From: Klebsiella sp. RHBSTW-00484
GTDB taxonomy: Bacteria; Pseudomonadota; Gammaproteobacteria; Enterobacterales; Enterobacteriaceae
DNA: 64,000 nucleotides
Direction: 5' to 3'
Assembly (NCBI RefSeq): GCF_013705725.1
Contig: NZ_CP055481.1
Coordinates: 4,960,001 to 5,024,000 of the forward strand
Program-made: the position numbers and the translations under genes
Notes under the pieces: generated by a model
Databases searched by the model: none
Told to the model about the DNA's origin: nothing
Seen by the model: only the letters and a program-made list of their open reading frames with translations
Part shown: piece by piece, positions 19,300 to 53,843 of the stretch
Layout: each line of letters starts with the position of its first letter
How positions within the stretch are numbered: the stretch's first letter is position 1

Positions 19300-19334
19300 C
19301 CCTCTTCCTGTGGAAGAGGGCTGGGGTGAGGGCA
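19300..19334. repeat. CCCTCTTCC/GGAAGAGGG palindromic repeat unit
   Basis: CCCTCTTCC-TGT-GGAAGAGGG followed by CTGGGGTGAGGGCA. It belongs to the same family as the units at 50037-50055 + 51256-51271 and at 51290-51323, all outside genes. Its minus-strand sequence CCCCAGCCCT-CTTCC closely resembles the target of the IS110-type element at 50056-51253. Confidence 0.7.
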
Positions 19335-47947: not shown

Positions 47948-48425
47948 CCTGCTCGACTTATGGCAACAACGTACGCGTCGCGAACAGCATCTGCTGCTGG
48001 GGATGGGCGCGATGCTGCTTATCGGCCTGGTGTATTACGCGCTATGGCAGCCGTGGCAAAACCGCGAGGCACAATGGCGGCAAACGCTGGCCAGAGAGCA
48101 GGCTAATCTGCAGTGGATGCGCCAGCAAACGCCGCTTCTCCGGCAGCTTAGCCAGCAGAAACCGCCTATGGCGCAGGAAGAGCCATCGACGGTGATTATG
48201 CGCGAGGCCGCCCGCCACGGCATCACCATCGTTCGTCTACAGCCGCAGGGGGCTCGCCTGAGCCTCACCGTGCAGCCCGCCGATTTCCAGTCGCTGATGT
48301 TATGGCTGGATGCGCTGGGACAGTCGGGGATGACAACCGCCACGCTGGCTGTCTCAGCCGTAGCACAGCAGCCCGGCTGGGTTACCGTCAATGCGCTGGT
48401 GCTGGAGCGTAGTGATGAAAAATAA
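47940..48425 (+). CDS. pulM: Type II secretion protein PulM (GspM)
   Basis: Bitopic inner-membrane partner of PulL of 161 residues. Short cytosolic tail, TM at about 18-35 (LLLGMGAMLLIGLVYYALW), coiled segment, and a periplasmic ferredoxin-like domain. It overlaps pulL by eight bases and pulN by eleven. Confidence 0.95.
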   Translation: MPDLLDLWQQRTRREQHLLLGMGAMLLIGLVYYALWQPWQNREAQWRQTLAREQANLQWMRQQTPLLRQLSQQKPPMAQEEPSTVIMREAARHGITIVRLQPQGARLSLTVQPADFQSLMLWLDALGQSGMTTATLAVSAVAQQPGWVTVNALVLERSDEK

Positions 48426-49173
48426 ACTGCTCATTGGCCTGCTGCTGGCGGCGGTCTATCTCTTCTGGCTGTTGCTTAGCGCTCCGGCGCGGCTGCTGAC
48501 CCTGGCGCTGCCGGAAGGCGCACGGCTCTCTGCAACGTCAGGCACCCTGTGGCAAGGGGAAGCCCGTCAGGCCAGCTGGCGTGGTGTCGAGCTGGCCTAT
48601 TTGCGCTGGGAGTTTGGCTTCTCGTCCTGGCTTCCCGGCTGGCATATCCGTTTTAACGACCCGTCCGGGCTACGCGGCCAGGCCTGGCTGCACGGTCTGA
48701 ACGAATTTGTGGTACATGAGGGGCGTCTCACGATCCCGGCCCGTTTTATCAGCCAGAGGTTAGCGCTCGGAATACCGCTGGAAGCCAGCGGTCAGGTGGT
48801 GCTGACATTACCTGAAGCCAGCTTTAACGCCAGCGGCTGCCAGCAGATTACCGGCGGCAATATACAGTGGCGGGATGCGGCGCTCAACTCCCCGGCAGGG
48901 GCGCTTGAACTGGCTCGCGTAGACGGCAAATTAAGCTGTACCCCAGCGGGCGCGCTGGGTCTTGCCCTAACCCAGGATTCTCATCAGCTTAGCCTCAGCG
49001 GACAAGGTTCTTTCACGCCAGACGGTCGCTATACGTTTAGCGGGACATGGCAAACCCGCCAGGCGGCCCCGGCGCTGCTCAGCCTGTTGGCGGCACAAAA
49101 TGCGCGTAAAGATGAGCAGGGGCGCACGCCGTGGCAGTGGCAAGGGCAGTGGTTATCGCAGGAGACACGATGA
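48415..49173 (+). CDS. pulN: Type II secretion protein PulN (GspN)
   Basis: Inner-membrane protein of 252 residues (MKNKLLIGLLLAAVYLFWLL) with one N-terminal TM and a periplasmic domain. Present in many but not all type II systems and reported as dispensable for PulA secretion in K. oxytoca. The ATG at 48415 lies within the pulM end. The longer open frame to 48391 overlaps pulM more deeply and is unlikely. Confidence 0.93.
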   Translation: MKNKLLIGLLLAAVYLFWLLLSAPARLLTLALPEGARLSATSGTLWQGEARQASWRGVELAYLRWEFGFSSWLPGWHIRFNDPSGLRGQAWLHGLNEFVVHEGRLTIPARFISQRLALGIPLEASGQVVLTLPEASFNASGCQQITGGNIQWRDAALNSPAGALELARVDGKLSCTPAGALGLALTQDSHQLSLSGQGSFTPDGRYTFSGTWQTRQAAPALLSLLAAQNARKDEQGRTPWQWQGQWLSQETR

Positions 49174-49973
49174 TGATAGAAAATATCACGCAGCTGGAGG
49201 AGTTTGCCGCACAATTCCCGCTCGTCTGGAGCGGTTTTTTACTCCTTTTCGGCCTGACGTTCGGCAGCTTTTTTAACGTCGTTATTCACCGCTTACCGCT
49301 GATGATGGAGCAGGTCGGGGGAATTAATCTTTGCTTTCCTGCGTCGTTCTGCCCGCAGTGCCGTCAGTCCATCGCCTGGCGGGATAATATTCCCCTTTTG
49401 AGCTTTCTGTGGCTGAAGGGGCATTCACGCTGCTGCGGACTACCGATATCGCATCGTTATCCGCTGGTAGAGCTGGCGACCGGCATGCTGTTTGCGTTGG
49501 TCGGATACCTGATGCTTCCGGGGATACCGCTGCTGGGCGGCCTGCTTCTGCTGTCGGTTCTGCTAATCCTTGCCGCCATCGACGCGCAAACGCAGCTGCT
49601 GCCCGATCGGCTGACCCTACCACTGCTATGGGCCGGGCTGCTGTTTAATCTTAACGATACCTTCGTTCCGCTGGCGGATGCGGTCATCGGCGCGATGGCC
49701 GGGTATTTGTCGCTCTGGACGGTGTTTTGGGTATTTCGTCTGCTAACCGGCAAGGAGGCGCTGGGCTACGGTGATTTTAAGCTGCTGGCGGCGCTCGGGG
49801 CATGGTGCGGCTGGCAGATGCTACCACAAACGCTGCTGCTGGCCTCCGCCAGCGGCCTGGTCTGGACGCTGTTACAGCGGCTGGTGACCCGGCAATCGCT
49901 GCAACAACCGCTGGCCTTCGGCCCCTGGCTGGCGCTGGCGGGCGGCGGGATCTTTTTGTGGAGCCAGATATAA
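49170..49973 (+). CDS. pulO: Prepilin peptidase/N-methyltransferase PulO
   Basis: Polytopic inner-membrane aspartic protease that cleaves and N-methylates the pseudopilins PulG-K. It has 267 residues from the ATG at 49170 (GGAG in front), overlapping the pulN stop as ATGA. Cys motif SFCPQCRQSIAWRDN with SRCCGLPIS. The two catalytic Asp are in AIDAQTQLLPDR and GYGDFKLLAALGAW. Last gene of pulC-O. An IS110-type element lies 82 bases after it. Confidence 0.96.
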   Translation: MMIENITQLEEFAAQFPLVWSGFLLLFGLTFGSFFNVVIHRLPLMMEQVGGINLCFPASFCPQCRQSIAWRDNIPLLSFLWLKGHSRCCGLPISHRYPLVELATGMLFALVGYLMLPGIPLLGGLLLLSVLLILAAIDAQTQLLPDRLTLPLLWAGLLFNLNDTFVPLADAVIGAMAGYLSLWTVFWVFRLLTGKEALGYGDFKLLAALGAWCGWQMLPQTLLLASASGLVWTLLQRLVTRQSLQQPLAFGPWLALAGGGIFLWSQI

Positions 49974-50036
49974 CCGCGCTGACCGGGAAATATCCCTGAG
50001 AAATCCCCGGAAATAAAAAGTCGGTGACGGTTTTCT

Positions 50037-50055
50037 CCCTCTCCCTCCGGGAGAG
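50037..50055. repeat. Left part of a palindromic repeat interrupted by the IS element
   Basis: CCCTCTCCC-TCC-GGGAGAG stops at the insertion point. Its continuation GGCCGGGGTGAGGGCA starts at 51256 beyond the element. Joined, they give an intact CCTCTCCC/GGGAGAGG hairpin plus tail, the same layout as the unit at 19300-19334. Confidence 0.8.
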
Positions 50056-50081
50056 ATACCGTCTTGCCGGTTATCCTGCAA
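50054..50081 (-). promoter_or_regulatory. Right-end half of a junction promoter
   Basis: On the minus strand TTGCAG (50076-50081) is followed by 17 bases and TATCT at the element end. In the integrated state the sixth base of the -10 is C (TATCTC). In a circle joined to the left end it becomes T (TATCTT). This suggests a promoter that is completed on excision and reads into the bridge RNA, as reported for IS621. Confidence 0.5.
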
Positions 50082-51033
50082 GTGGTATTTCAGCGTTAAA
50101 TTCATGCCCGGATTTCACCACACCATAAGCCAGCTGCAGTAATTTCCTCATTCCTGCACACACTCGCTCTTTCCCTGTCTTACCCCGGGCTGCAAGCCTT
50201 TCCATCAGGTTTTTCACCACCTTATTGCATCTTCCTGCCACTACCGCTGGCATATACAGTGCGCTACGCAGCTCTGCATGGCCCACTTTCGACAGCCTGC
50301 TTTTCCCTTTCCACATCCCTGACTCACAACGACGAGGATTCAAACCAGCATACGCCACCAGTGCCTTGCTGTTGCTGAACCGTCGCAGATTTCCTGCGAA
50401 CGCCAGCAGGCTCACACTCAGCATGTCTCCTATTCCGGGGATACTTTTCAGTAGCTCCCGGTCCCGCTTCAGGTCTGGGTTATCATCGATATGCCGGTTG
50501 ATTTTATTGCGGGTTTCTTCAATCAGCTCATCCAGCATCGTAACGTGTTCATTCAGGGAAGGAACGATGACTTCATCTGCTGCCTCAAGGCGGTTCATCT
50601 CCATCTGACGCATCTCTTCCAGGTTACGCAGGTGGCGTACCAGAGCCGTCAGTTGTCGTTCGCTCAGCGGCGCAGGATGCCAGGGGGCCGGCTGATACAG
50701 AGCGCAGTAGCGCGCTATCAGCGCCGCGTCGCTTTTGTCCGTTTTATTGCGGGTCAGTTCAGTGTTTGCGAACGCATGGATACGTGCCGGGTTTTCAAGG
50801 CTGACGCAGCAGCCATTATCGGCCAGCAGGGTGGCCAGTTCAGTGCTGTAGCAACCTGTTGCCTCCATGCAGACATGACAGTGACCAAAACGCGCCAGCC
50901 AGTTCAGAAATTCGCGGCATCCGGCTGGGGTATTGGCGAATTTTTTGGTTTTGTACTTCTGGTTTGGCAGCAGGACAGCAACGTCGAATTTGAGTTTGGC
51001 GATATCAACGCCGACAGGGACAAGATTCATCAT
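50071..51033 (-). CDS. IS110-family DEDD recombinase (bridge-RNA-guided transposase)
   Basis: 320 residues. RuvC-like N-domain with the DEDD acidic residues visible: Asp10 (VGVDIAK), Glu57 (CMEATGCY), Asp99 and Asp102 (NKTDKSDAALIARY). A coiled middle follows, then the C-terminal transposase_20 domain (LLKSIPGIGDMLSVSLLAF, YAGLNPRRCESG, SRLSKVGHAELRSALYMPA) with likely nucleophile Ser238. It resembles IS621 recombinase through KKFANT, RNKTD, PGIG and ALYMPA motifs and has the same order and spacing. GGAG precedes the ATG at 51033. A second ATG at 51030 is possible. It appears intact. Confidence 0.93.
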   Translation of the reverse strand: MMNLVPVGVDIAKLKFDVAVLLPNQKYKTKKFANTPAGCREFLNWLARFGHCHVCMEATGCYSTELATLLADNGCCVSLENPARIHAFANTELTRNKTDKSDAALIARYCALYQPAPWHPAPLSERQLTALVRHLRNLEEMRQMEMNRLEAADEVIVPSLNEHVTMLDELIEETRNKINRHIDDNPDLKRDRELLKSIPGIGDMLSVSLLAFAGNLRRFSNSKALVAYAGLNPRRCESGMWKGKSRLSKVGHAELRSALYMPAVVAGRCNKVVKNLMERLAARGKTGKERVCAGMRKLLQLAYGVVKSGHEFNAEIPLAG

Positions 51034-51059
51034 GGTACTCCGTAACCTTATGAATATTA

Positions 51060-51246
51060 TCGCCGGACCATCCTTATATGTGGGTGCTCAGGGCACAGGA
51101 TACCGTTCGGTCTTGAGGCGACAGGGAAACAGGTTACCGGGGCATAATCTCTCCCGCGGGCTCAGGGGCTCCAGGGCTGGGTGATGCTCACCGGTAACCT
51201 CCCGATGATCAGTCGGGGATCTTCTCCGCCGGAACGGAGAAGGTCA
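51060..51246 (-). ncRNA. Predicted bridge RNA of the IS110-type element
   Basis: Read on the minus strand from about 51246: 5' hairpin CTTCTCCG-TTCCGG-CGGAGAAG (51221-51242); target-binding loop closed by the perfect stem AGGTTACCGG/CCGGTAACCT (51191-51200 with 51131-51140); donor-binding loop closed by CGCC/GGCG and GACC/GGTC pairs (51061-51069 with 51109-51120), capped by GTGC/GCAC (51084-51096). Guides: CCCAGCCCT (51173-51181) and GGGAGAG (51149-51155) for the target; ACGGTATC (51099-51106) and ATATAAG (51073-51079) for the donor. Length of about 185 and domain order agree with IS621 bridge RNA. Exact ends are inferred. Confidence 0.75.
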
Positions 51247-51255
51247 AGACATAAG

Positions 51256-51271
51256 GGCCGGGGTGAGGGCA
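51256..51271. repeat. Right part of the interrupted palindromic repeat
   Basis: GGCCGGGGTGAGGGCA continues the repeat broken off at 50055. It is followed 18 bases later by another unit in opposite orientation, a paired arrangement like BIMEs. Confidence 0.75.
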
Positions 51272-51289
51272 TTTTTGCGCATGCTCTCC

Positions 51290-51323
51290 CCTCACCCTAA
51301 CCCTCTCCCCAAAGGGGAGAGGG
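51290..51323. repeat. CCCTCTCCCC/GGGGAGAGGG palindromic repeat unit
   Basis: CCTCACCCTAA then CCCTCTCCCC-AAA-GGGGAGAGGG (10-bp perfect stem). Inverted relative to the interrupted unit. Intergenic, between the IS element and hrpB. Confidence 0.75.
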
Positions 51324-51372
51324 AACCGTCCTGTGATCATTTTTACTATATAACAATGTGTTAGTCAGGTAG

Positions 51373-51403
51373 CACGGGTAAGGCGTTTGCGCCGCAACCC
51401 GTG
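51373..51403. repeat. REP-like palindrome after hrpB
   Basis: CACGGGT-AA-GGCG-TTTG-CGCC-GCA-ACCCGTG resembles the E. coli REP unit with its TAAGGCGTTT-CGCC centre. It lies ten bases past the hrpB stop, where such units often protect mRNA ends. Confidence 0.6.
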
Positions 51404-51413
51404 GACGCTCCGG

Positions 51414-53843
51414 CTACGAATACTTCTTGGTACGCCGGGTCGGGGCGGTATTGGCCGGATCGTCCGGCCAGACGTGCTTCGGATAGCGCCCTTTCATCTC
51501 TTTTTGCACCTCACGATAGCTCCCCTGCCAGAACGCGCCTAGATCGCGGGTGATTTGCAGCGGTCGTTGGGCGGGCGATAGCAGCTCCAGCACCAGCGGC
51601 ACGCGCCCCTGAGCTATAACCGGGGTCGTCGCCTCGCCAAACATCTCCTGCATCCGCACCGCCAGCGCAGGCGGATTTTCATCATGATAGCGAATGGCGA
51701 TGCGGCTGCCGGTCGGCACCGTGTAATGACCAGGCAGCTCGCTATCCAGCTTCTGACGAAGCGGCCACGGTAGCCAGTTTTGCAGCGCCTGACGCACGTC
51801 CAGCGCCTTGAGCGCGCGCAGCGAGTGAACGCCAGTCATCTGCGGCAACAGCCACTCCTCAAGCGACTCCAGAAGCGATATTTCATCAACGTCGGGCCAC
51901 GCCTCTTCCGGCAACCACTGCGCGGCACAGTGCAGTCTCAGGCGTAGCTGTTCCGCTTCCGGGGTCCAGTTGAGCACGCTCAGGCCCTTATCCCGGATGC
52001 CGTTGAGCATCGCCTGATGCAGCTCCTCTTCCGAAGGCTTCGCCAGCGGCTGGGTCTTGATCACCAGTTGCCCGATACAGGTGCGTCGCCAGGCCTTCAG
52101 GGTGCCCAGCGCTTCGTCCCACTCGACGGTATCAGAACGCTGAGCCAACGCCGGACACTGCTCAATCAGCGCATGAATATCCACCGGCAGCGCCAGTAAA
52201 ATCCGTGCATCCGGCGACGAACTGCCCTGCAATAGCAGCGGCGCAATCAGCCACTCATGGCGACCCAGCGCATCGTCAGCGTCAAGCATTGCACCCATCC
52301 CGTTCGCCAGTTGGTAGCGCCCCTCCTGGCCTCGACGATGGGCAATGCGGTCGGCAAAAGCCGCTGCCAGCAGCGCAGCCATTTGGCTGGCATCAGGCTG
52401 ACCGCCGCGGGTCGCCAGTCGCTTCATCAGCTGCTGCGCTCGCTGCTGCCAGTTGGCCTGCTGGCGGGAAAACGCCGAACTGAGATCGCTATTACCGCCG
52501 CGCGGTGGTTCTTCAAGGATCGCCGCCAGTTTCGCCGCCGTTGCCACACCATCGGTATCATCCGTTGCGGTCAACATGGCCGCCAGGCGTGGATCGTTAC
52601 CCAACGCGGCCATTTTGCGCCCGTGCGCCGAGAGTCGCTCGCCGTCCAGCGCCGAGAGCGCAGTCAGCAGGCGACGGGCCGCCGCCAGGTTAGCCGCAGG
52701 CGGCAGATCCAGCCAACGAAGCTGGGACGGGTCCTGACATCCCCACTGTAAAAGCTCCAGCAATAGCGCCGACAGATCGCTTTGCAGGATTTCCGCATCG
52801 CCCTGCGCCGCCGCGCGCTCAGCCTGCTCTTTACCGATCAAATGCAGGCAGATCCCCGGTTCCAGACGTCCGGCACGCCCGGCGCGCTGGGTCATCGAGG
52901 CCTGGCTGATGCGTTGTGTGATCAGGCGAGTCAATCCCGTGCGAGCGTCAAAGCGAGCGACGCGCTCCTGGGCGCTATCCACCACCAGCCGAATACCTTC
53001 GATAGTCAGACTGGTTTCGGCAATATTGGTCGCCAGCACCACTTTGCGCATCCCGGCCGGCGCAGGCAGTATCGCCTTGCGCTGCTCGTTCAGCGGCAGC
53101 GCGCCATATAGCGGACAGAGAACCACATCGTTCGCCACCCGCTCCGCCAGCCGCTCCTGCACCCGCTGAATCTCTCCAACGCCGGGCAGGAATAGCAGCA
53201 TCGAGCCGTTTTCGCTGCGCAGCAGTTCTGCGGCGGCAATCGCCACCGCCTCGTCAAATCGCTGATGCGTTGGCAGCGGCGAAAAACGCCGTTCAACCGG
53301 AAACGCGCGCCCTGCGGATGTCACCGTTGGCGCGTCCGGCAGCAGCTGTTGCAAACGCTCGTTATCCAGCGTCGCCGACATGATCAGCAGCTTGAGATCG
53401 TCGCGCAATCCCTGCTGCACATCGAGCAGCAGCGCCAGCGCCAGATCCGCCTGCAGGCTGCGTTCGTGAAATTCATCGAGGATCACCAGCCCAATGTCGG
53501 TCAGTTCGGGATCGCGCTGGATCATCCGCGTCAAAATACCTTCCGTGACGACTTCGAGGCGCGTCTTCGGCCCGACGCAGGTCTCGGCGCGCATGCGATA
53601 GCCCACGGTCTCGCCGGGTTTCTCCCCCAGCAGCTCCGCCAGCCTTTGCGCCACGTTGCGTGCAGCCAGCCGCCGCGGCTCCAGCAGAATAATGCGTCCG
53701 TTGATTTTACCTTCCGCGAGGATTTGCAGCGGCAGCCAGGTGGATTTCCCGGCACCGGTTGGCGCATTGAGCAGTACCTGCGGCGCATGCTGCAGGGCAG
53801 TGAGAAGTTCAGGAAGAACGGCGGCAACCGGCAATGAGGACAC
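51414..53843 (-). CDS. hrpB: ATP-dependent helicase HrpB
   Basis: DEAH-box superfamily 2 helicase of uncertain cellular role. It has 809 residues. Walker A LNAPTGAGKSTWLPLQI at about 24-40, DEFH box VILDEFHERSLQ, SAT motif LLIMSATLDN, helicase C motifs (VVLATNIAETSLTIEG, SMTQRAGRAGRLEPG), and the HrpB-specific C-terminal domain. In E. coli it directly neighbours mrcB. Here the pul locus and the IS element lie between them. Confidence 0.97.
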   Translation of the reverse strand: MSSLPVAAVLPELLTALQHAPQVLLNAPTGAGKSTWLPLQILAEGKINGRIILLEPRRLAARNVAQRLAELLGEKPGETVGYRMRAETCVGPKTRLEVVTEGILTRMIQRDPELTDIGLVILDEFHERSLQADLALALLLDVQQGLRDDLKLLIMSATLDNERLQQLLPDAPTVTSAGRAFPVERRFSPLPTHQRFDEAVAIAAAELLRSENGSMLLFLPGVGEIQRVQERLAERVANDVVLCPLYGALPLNEQRKAILPAPAGMRKVVLATNIAETSLTIEGIRLVVDSAQERVARFDARTGLTRLITQRISQASMTQRAGRAGRLEPGICLHLIGKEQAERAAAQGDAEILQSDLSALLLELLQWGCQDPSQLRWLDLPPAANLAAARRLLTALSALDGERLSAHGRKMAALGNDPRLAAMLTATDDTDGVATAAKLAAILEEPPRGGNSDLSSAFSRQQANWQQRAQQLMKRLATRGGQPDASQMAALLAAAFADRIAHRRGQEGRYQLANGMGAMLDADDALGRHEWLIAPLLLQGSSSPDARILLALPVDIHALIEQCPALAQRSDTVEWDEALGTLKAWRRTCIGQLVIKTQPLAKPSEEELHQAMLNGIRDKGLSVLNWTPEAEQLRLRLHCAAQWLPEEAWPDVDEISLLESLEEWLLPQMTGVHSLRALKALDVRQALQNWLPWPLRQKLDSELPGHYTVPTGSRIAIRYHDENPPALAVRMQEMFGEATTPVIAQGRVPLVLELLSPAQRPLQITRDLGAFWQGSYREVQKEMKGRYPKHVWPDDPANTAPTRRTKKYS

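Follow-up and report, generated by a model that had tools for sequence, protein, structure and literature searches.

A bridge-RNA insertion sequence of the IS110 group and its ten insertions into TM_ECO-type repeats of a Klebsiella genome

Background

An IS110-group insertion sequence that interrupts a short repeat in a Klebsiella genome raises the question of what brought it to this place: an RNA encoded in its own non-coding end, the shape of the repeat, or recombination between repeats. The window analyzed here is a stretch of 64,000 nucleotides of Klebsiella sp. RHBSTW-00484, to which all coordinates refer. From the look of their translations, we take the neighbors of the element to be hrpB (51414-53843) on one side and a prepilin peptidase gene (49131-49973) on the other. 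An earlier note, made from the letters alone, had read a bridge RNA in the element, with target guides that match the actual insertion site. The element is a genuine bridge-RNA element, unusually well documented by its own copies, and the evidence leaves very little doubt that this IS110-group insertion sequence multiplied recently and encodes an IS621-type bridge RNA at its 5' end.

The element, its copies and its recombinase

The insertion sequence occupies positions 50056-51253 on the minus strand (1198 bp) and is bounded by two CT cores on the same strand, the left one (51254-51255) closing the left target half and the right one (50054-50055) opening the right target half. The 6.94-Mb genome contains at least ten copies (40 of 43 candidates scored), all 100% identical over exactly these 1198 bp. 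The ends are set by these copies, whose flanks differ outside the target repeat; CT is present at both ends in 10/10 copies, and the left core is additionally marked by the 2-base flank overlap at the empty sites of two other copies. The non-coding left end is long (220 bp) and the right end is short (15 bp).

Between them, the minus-strand gene at 50071-51033 encodes a DEDD recombinase of 320 amino acids. Profile searches identify the DEDD RuvC-like domain (PF01548, 93.3 bits) and the Transposase_20 domain (PF02371, 86.6 bits), and the match to NF033542, which NCBI names "IS110 family RNA-guided transposase", reaches 229.4 bits at a cut-off of 140. Residues 6-315 align with the IS621 recombinase structure (8wt6, E-value 6.4e-79) and residues 7-315 with ISCro4 (9t56). 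In the phmmer alignment, D10, E57, D99 and D102 together with serines 245 and 248 are in register with the active residues of IS621, the roles of which are described in the accessible part of PMC11208158, and would thus be the predicted catalytic residues. At the nucleotide level, a megablast search of the E. coli genome collection gave no match to the element; no relative was detected among viral contigs, and the plasmid matches are two records, both from Candidatus Fukatsuia symbiotica. At the protein level, at least 23 clusters of recombinases (among the 120 listed of 2775, the element's own cluster and two partial sequences counted) share 75% identity or more, with Cedecea and Enterobacter among their named hosts.

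Structure and conservation of the bridge RNA

The covariance model R1 was built from six relatives with 55-62% protein identity, the element itself and its closest relative being excluded. A search of the 64-kb window with this model yields a single match up to an E-value of 1, which covers the whole stretch of the non-coding left end assigned to the bridge RNA (51063-51253, minus strand; 138 bits, E-value 5.6e-35). Across the genome, R1 matches the ten copies of the element and nothing else (among the best 150 of 464 candidates), and it also matches 20 of 23 other IS110 loci tried (E-value up to 1), missing L123, L126 and L010. Rfam has no match up to an E-value of 1 at the element; the two Rfam matches in 48000-53000 are both below the gathering score and both outside the element.

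Read along the minus strand, the RNA starts with an extra 5' hairpin, CTTCTCCG/CGGAGAAG (51221-51242, helix 1), which is placed before the 5' hairpin, a CCCGA/TCGGG stem-loop (51201-51217, helix 2) recovered in both the single-sequence and the consensus folds. The target-binding loop follows (51131-51200), closed by the perfect 10-bp stem AGGTTACCGG/CCGGTAACCT, in which 51191-51200 pairs with 51131-51140 (helix 3). The donor-binding loop (51066-51112) has an outer GACC/GGTC stem and an apical GTGC/GCAC stem, of which the apical one appears in the consensus fold and the outer one was placed by hand after the IS621 pattern. The single-sequence fold has an energy of -71.7 kcal/mol (z -3.07), with 1 of 200 shuffles folding at least as well. 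Neither here nor in the consensus fold made from eight relatives does the outer donor stem form, other pairings taking its place.

When the named structure is imposed on eight left ends, 95.0% of the cells are paired and 14 of 38 pairs are changed on both sides. Covariation scores 0.382, compared with 0.202 in shuffled alignments; the observed value is reached in 0/500 shuffles and is destroyed by sliding the partners. In all, 0/500 shuffles reach the observed value for four of the five measures used in the structure tests, and 9/500 for the fifth, further pair types. Twelve of the 14 doubly changed pairs lie in the extra hairpin (6 of 9 pairs) and in the closing stem of the target loop (6 of 10 pairs, 98.8% of cells paired). 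The donor stems (helices 5 and 6) have none; the GACC/GGTC stem is paired in 96.8% of cells without a pair changed on both sides. The covariation therefore backs the target loop and the hairpins only.

The structural part of the earlier note, a 5' hairpin and two loops of which the first is closed by a perfect 10-bp stem and holds both guides, is thus borne out by the sequence, the fold and the covariation, and the second loop reads as a donor loop. Two of the checks that the note had proposed, a covariance-model search and folding, came out in its favor: a model built without the element finds it, and the RNA folds 3.07 standard deviations better than its shuffles, albeit with the outer donor stem unformed. 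Against the note's own counter-scenario, the loss of a two-loop structure among homologs, stands the conservation just described, to which the hardly varying stems of the donor loop add little.

A junction formed by the right end, the core and the left end contains a weak and unconvincing candidate for a sigma-70 promoter, TTGCAG-17-TATCTT, with 7/12 consensus positions as counted by hand, the best junction score being 8; the promoter-like score is clearer in some relatives, e.g., 10/12 in L009.

Guides and insertion sites

The left target guide, CCCAGCCCT (51173-51181), and the right target guide, GGGAGAG (51149-51155), are both located on the minus strand. On the same strand, the left target half, CCCTCACCCCGGCC-CT (51254-51269), and the right target half, CT-CTCCC-GGA-GGGAGAGGG (50037-50055), rejoin to CCCTCACCCCGGCC-CT-CTCCC. 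The left guide matches this target through the core at 8/9 positions and the right guide is complementary to CTCTCCC at 7/7, exactly as the earlier note had read them.

All ten copies are inserted into CCCTCACCC-NNN-CC-CT-CTCCC, i.e., CCCTCACCCNNNCC-CT-CTCCC. The spacer NNN is TAA at five occupied sites, CGG at four (the window's copy included) and CAG at one. The right guide is complementary at 7/7 positions to all ten sites. The left guide is identical to the target through the core at 9/9 positions at the CAG site, at 8/9 at the CGG sites and at 7/9 at the TAA sites, so that the combined fit is 14-16 of 16 throughout. Nine of the ten sites are accordingly imperfect for the left guide, with one or two mismatches in nine, all at left positions 3-5; of the two differences at the TAA sites, one would pair with the bottom strand as a G-T wobble. 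IS621 tolerates a mismatch at target position 4 (accessible part of PMC11208160), and the mismatch at the CGG sites lies at the same position from the core. The base following CTCTCCC varies among the ten sites, so recognition appears to stop where the right guide stops.

The second loop can be read against the ends of the element in the same way. The left donor guide, ACGGTATCC (51098-51106, minus strand), matches the right end and core, ACGGTAT-CT, at 8/9 positions; the right donor guide, ACATATAAG (51073-51081, minus strand), pairs at 7/7 positions with CT-TATGT in a discontiguous manner, nine nucleotides against seven. The donor figures are plain match counts, the script allowing the 2-nt skip for the latter. 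The same nine-against-seven pattern is described for IS621 in the accessible part of PMC11208160.

That the agreement of guides and site is hard to explain by chance, as the earlier note had argued, withstands several comparisons. Among dinucleotide shuffles of the window's RNA, 1 in 3000 reaches 15/16 at any allowed position. The RNAs of 20 other elements, scored against the window's site, give 13 for G337 and 8-11 for the remainder. In a permutation test on the 21 elements with ends that could be set, which are partly close kin (G355/G302/G330; G344/G282) and hence not fully independent, the summed guide fit to the elements' own sites is 292/336, compared with a maximum of 258 in 100,000 permutations. 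For 19 of the 21 RNAs, no site scores higher than the element's own, and for 13 of these all other sites score lower.

A first run of this test, with left guides sought from base 60 only, had given a sum of 275, with no more than 246 in any of 20,000 permutations; the range was widened and the guide spacing narrowed after the guides of some relatives proved to lie earlier, and the figures of 292 and 258 come from the widened run. One site was used per element (for G189 the best of three, L111; for G069, L096). G107 was omitted as it has no right flank, as was G147, which belongs to the same lineage as the Fukatsuia plasmid copy L143 that was used. Of the fifty loci collected, L098, L100, L108, L109, L113, L115, L123 and L126-L132 were not used, their ends being unset or the loci partial, and L140 was left out as its ends could not be found.

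The guides begin at offsets 72 and 98 in this element, in the G337 element, in the Fukatsuia element and in a Gallionellaceae element. The earlier note had named as its refutation the finding of copies with the same guides in unrelated targets. Instead, all ten copies here and 6/6 copies in G337 occupy the same motif, and relatives with other guides are mostly found in other sites that match those guides. Exceptions are G412a (11/16), G104 (right 7/7, left 5/9), copy L112 of G189 (left 6/9) and G147, in which the left flanks of three of five copies (L089, L091, L092) mismatch the left target guide. The right guide of L112 fits at 7/7 positions and the site lies, by eye, within a coding sequence; this copy is possibly a natural off-target insertion.

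The TM_ECO repeat as target

The occupied motif corresponds to a known repeat. TM_ECO (PIT repeat) was described as an intrastrand triplex motif, CCCTCNCCC-N3-6-GGGNGAGGG-N3-GGGNGAGGG, with 3610 occurrences in 262 proteobacterial genomes and 23 in E. coli K-12 (Holder et al. 2015, PMC4666352). The window's site fits this pattern read on the other strand, CCCTCNCCC-N3-CCCTCNCCC-N3-6-GGGNGAGGG, and the TTA (type A, Table 1 of that paper) and CCG (type B) spacers are the TAA and CGG spacers seen here. The left target half comprises the first arm, the spacer and the start of the second arm, and the right half the rest of the second arm, the loop and the third arm; the core thus falls within the second arm. 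An intact TM_ECO-type neighbor with the spacer TAA (51289-51309, plus strand), detected by motif search, forms an inverted pair with the occupied copy. A further TM_ECO-type sequence is present in the window at 19318-19332.

The full TM_ECO pattern is found at eight of the ten own sites and at three of the six G337 sites. The first two arms, those that the guides read, are intact in 16/16 of these sites; the third arm is absent at L084 of G337, degraded at L083 and L085, and shortened at L014 of this genome. Unless the arms decayed later, insertion would seem to require neither the third arm nor the triplex that depends on it.

Beside the occupied sites, the genome retains 68 intact copies of the motif, compared with 0 for a reversed control pattern, so that 10 of 78 exact sites are occupied. 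Broken down by spacer, the occupied and free sites are 1 and 1 for CAG, 5 and 27 for TAA, 4 and 21 for CGG, and 0 and 19 for five other spacers together; no preference for the guide's own CAG spacer beyond availability was detected (TAA versus the rest, Fisher p = 0.73). Near-miss sites with 1-3 mismatches number eight, in a search where the reversed control pattern likewise has 75 matches. Owing to the strong conservation of the repeat, near-misses are too few to prove, from this genome, that the guide rather than another feature of the repeat picks the site.

Empty counterparts of two copies were identified in sister genomes. For copy L018, two of six such genomes have flanks that meet and share two bases: G767, where the repeat is shorter than the motif by one base, and G761, where one base of the first arm is changed. 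In G756, a mutated repeat lies where the two flanks nearly meet; for the other three genomes, the matches listed there include one flank only. The flanks of copy L013 overlap by two bases in one of the six (G761), where the motif is exact. In each of the remaining five, the right-flank match begins at the core, but the left-flank match ends 50-102 bases short of it. For the window's own locus, an empty site was sought in 20 genomes of the genus (its own included), from which nine sister loci were taken. The end of hrpB was located by string search at three of these loci (L147, L149, L151), where about 420 bases contain no such repeat.

At the G767 empty site, the perfect match with the left guide extends further (CCTCACCCAGCCCTCTCCC), and this stretch was considered as the source of the guide. 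This sequence is absent from the present genome and occurs in only 4 of 246 genomes of the family (a sample without G767), and the idea was dropped for this reason.

Mechanism and alternative explanations

By analogy with IS621, the element would excise as a circle, and the recombinase would bind an RNA transcribed from the end region. The first loop would then pair with the target, the left guide with the bottom strand and the right guide with the top strand, and the second loop with the element's own joined ends, whereupon the recombinase would exchange strands at the CT dinucleotide. What can be read directly from the DNA are the two loops, the conservation of the target loop, the four guide segments, the CT core, the exact 2-base junctions, unoccupied sites for two of the copies in related genomes, and guides that agree with the actual sites in this and other elements.

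Given that all sites belong to one repeat, it has to be considered that the recombinase reads the palindromic or triplex-forming shape of TM_ECO, the likeness of loop and target being incidental or a relic of capture. The repeat can fold and is so conserved that sequence and shape can hardly be told apart within this genome, and recognition of palindromic REPs by a transposase was suggested already in 2006 (PMC1525189, in the part accessible). However, it is the third arm that is missing or damaged at L084, L083, L085 and L014, later decay being one possible cause, whereas the arms read by the guides are kept everywhere; moreover, relatives with other guides occupy other sites matching those guides, and for IS621 the guided mechanism has been demonstrated. 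Reading of shape thus appears very improbable.

The complete identity of the ten copies and their location in repeats would also fit spread by homologous recombination or gene conversion between the repeats rather than by guided insertion. Such a process is hard to reconcile with repeats of only about 35 bp, with junctions that are the same to the base at 10/10 sites and with empty sites whose flanks overlap by the two bases CT, as core exchange would predict, and it can be considered less probable still. A similarly slight likelihood attaches to the proposal that the structured 5' end mainly regulates expression of the recombinase. Small RNAs that regulate a transposase do exist, namely that of ISPpu9 (accessible part of PMC8450116), and both roles could coexist; yet regulation leaves unexplained why guides and targets vary together across elements and why the donor ends are spelled out in the second loop. 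Thus, a bridge RNA that guides insertion is the reading best compatible with the observations.

The locus then offers a clean natural test of the bridge-RNA rule, with ten identical copies, one guide and every site read by that guide. It also provides a natural measure of tolerance: the right seven positions are exact, and one or two mismatches occur on the left at positions 3-5.

The link between a bridge-RNA lineage and TM_ECO is the new part of this analysis and derives from two genomes, the present one and G337. Among the open-access papers listed in literature searches, we found none that joins TM_ECO or the triplex motif with bridge RNA, IS621 or IS110; the element itself may already have an ISfinder name. 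TM_ECO loci are unusually rearranged among E. coli strains, and in its accessible part the same source (PMC4666352) reports no association of these sites with transposons or transposases and discusses stalled replication and slippage as possible causes of the instability, none of them shown. If RNA-guided recombination is tied to TM_ECO, one possible cause of this instability becomes testable. Tentatively, one can imagine a bridge-RNA branch specialized on TM_ECO as a safe dispersed niche, with a guide that tolerates both main spacers, where guided insertion and recombination between the many sites that one guide reads add to the instability of TM_ECO in enterobacteria; this is a possibility that we would not favor at present. 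A general role of such elements as a cause of TM_ECO instability is hypothetical, the data on instability coming from E. coli, where the megablast search found no element. As K-12 has 23 copies of TM_ECO and the E. coli genome collection gave no match, laboratory E. coli could offer a naive background for tests.

Comparison with relatives and known systems

The closest parallel is the G337 element, from another genus, with 82% protein identity, the same right guide GGGAGAG and the same motif at all six of its sites (TAA at four, CAA at two). Its left guide, CCTAACCCT, differs from CCCAGCCCT and fits the TAA spacer. An IS621-like element in G355 has the same architecture at 46% protein identity and a different guide, ATCAGGCCT, and it targets REP rather than TM_ECO: 5/5 copies fetched are in REP-type sites, the left half fitting at 8/9 or 9/9 positions and the right half, as scored here, at 5/7 in four of the five. 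Copy numbers of the relatives are lower bounds, at most five candidates having been scored per genome.

Several loci among the relatives merit separate mention. In L088 and L090 of G147, the left flank repeats the initial 80-90 bases of the element as far as the left guide. In L088, guide-CT is joined precisely to the start of the element, which looks as though the DNA of the guide itself had acted as left target half (self-targeting); the corresponding join in L090 misses a clean CT exchange by one base. L089 and L091 of the same genome share their right flank with the guide-matching insertion L143 and have unrelated left flanks, which suggests later rearrangement at the left core. In G412, a 1.7-Mb genome, the different IS110 elements L138 and L133 are arranged head to tail about 130 bp apart; the site fit is 15/16 for one of them and 11/16 for the other. 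The 42%-identical element L135 (G410), which lost its left end at a contig start, has a TM_ECO-like right flank, CT-CTCCCCTAGGAGAGGGG, with a similar intact repeat nearby, and could possibly represent another IS110 lineage that uses the same repeat.

Among the experimentally characterized systems, seekRNA (IS1111/IS110 type; Siddiquee et al. 2024, PMC11187229) has in common with the present element targeting by an RNA from the non-coding region. As described in the accessible part of that paper, the seekRNA elements are mostly of the IS1111 type; their RNA lies downstream of the gene and has its matching regions in the opposite order, unlike the element analyzed here. The likeness to IS621 is much closer. 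According to the accessible parts of PMC11208160 (Durrant et al. 2024) and PMC11208158 (Hiraizumi et al. 2024), the two share the recombinase family, the catalytic residues, an RNA in the left end, a 5' stem-loop followed by two loops, the left-then-right order of the guides and the CT core, as well as, according to the former, the discontiguous right donor guide and insertion into a dispersed extragenic repeat. The IS621 protein is, however, only distantly related to the recombinase described here, as the alignment with 8wt6 shows. Judging from what is accessible of the same sources, there are three further differences: the target of IS621 is a classical REP and that of the present element is TM_ECO; the right target guide is exact over seven nucleotides here and spans four (G77-G80) in the IS621 structure; and the RNA of the present element has one more 5' hairpin than that of IS621.
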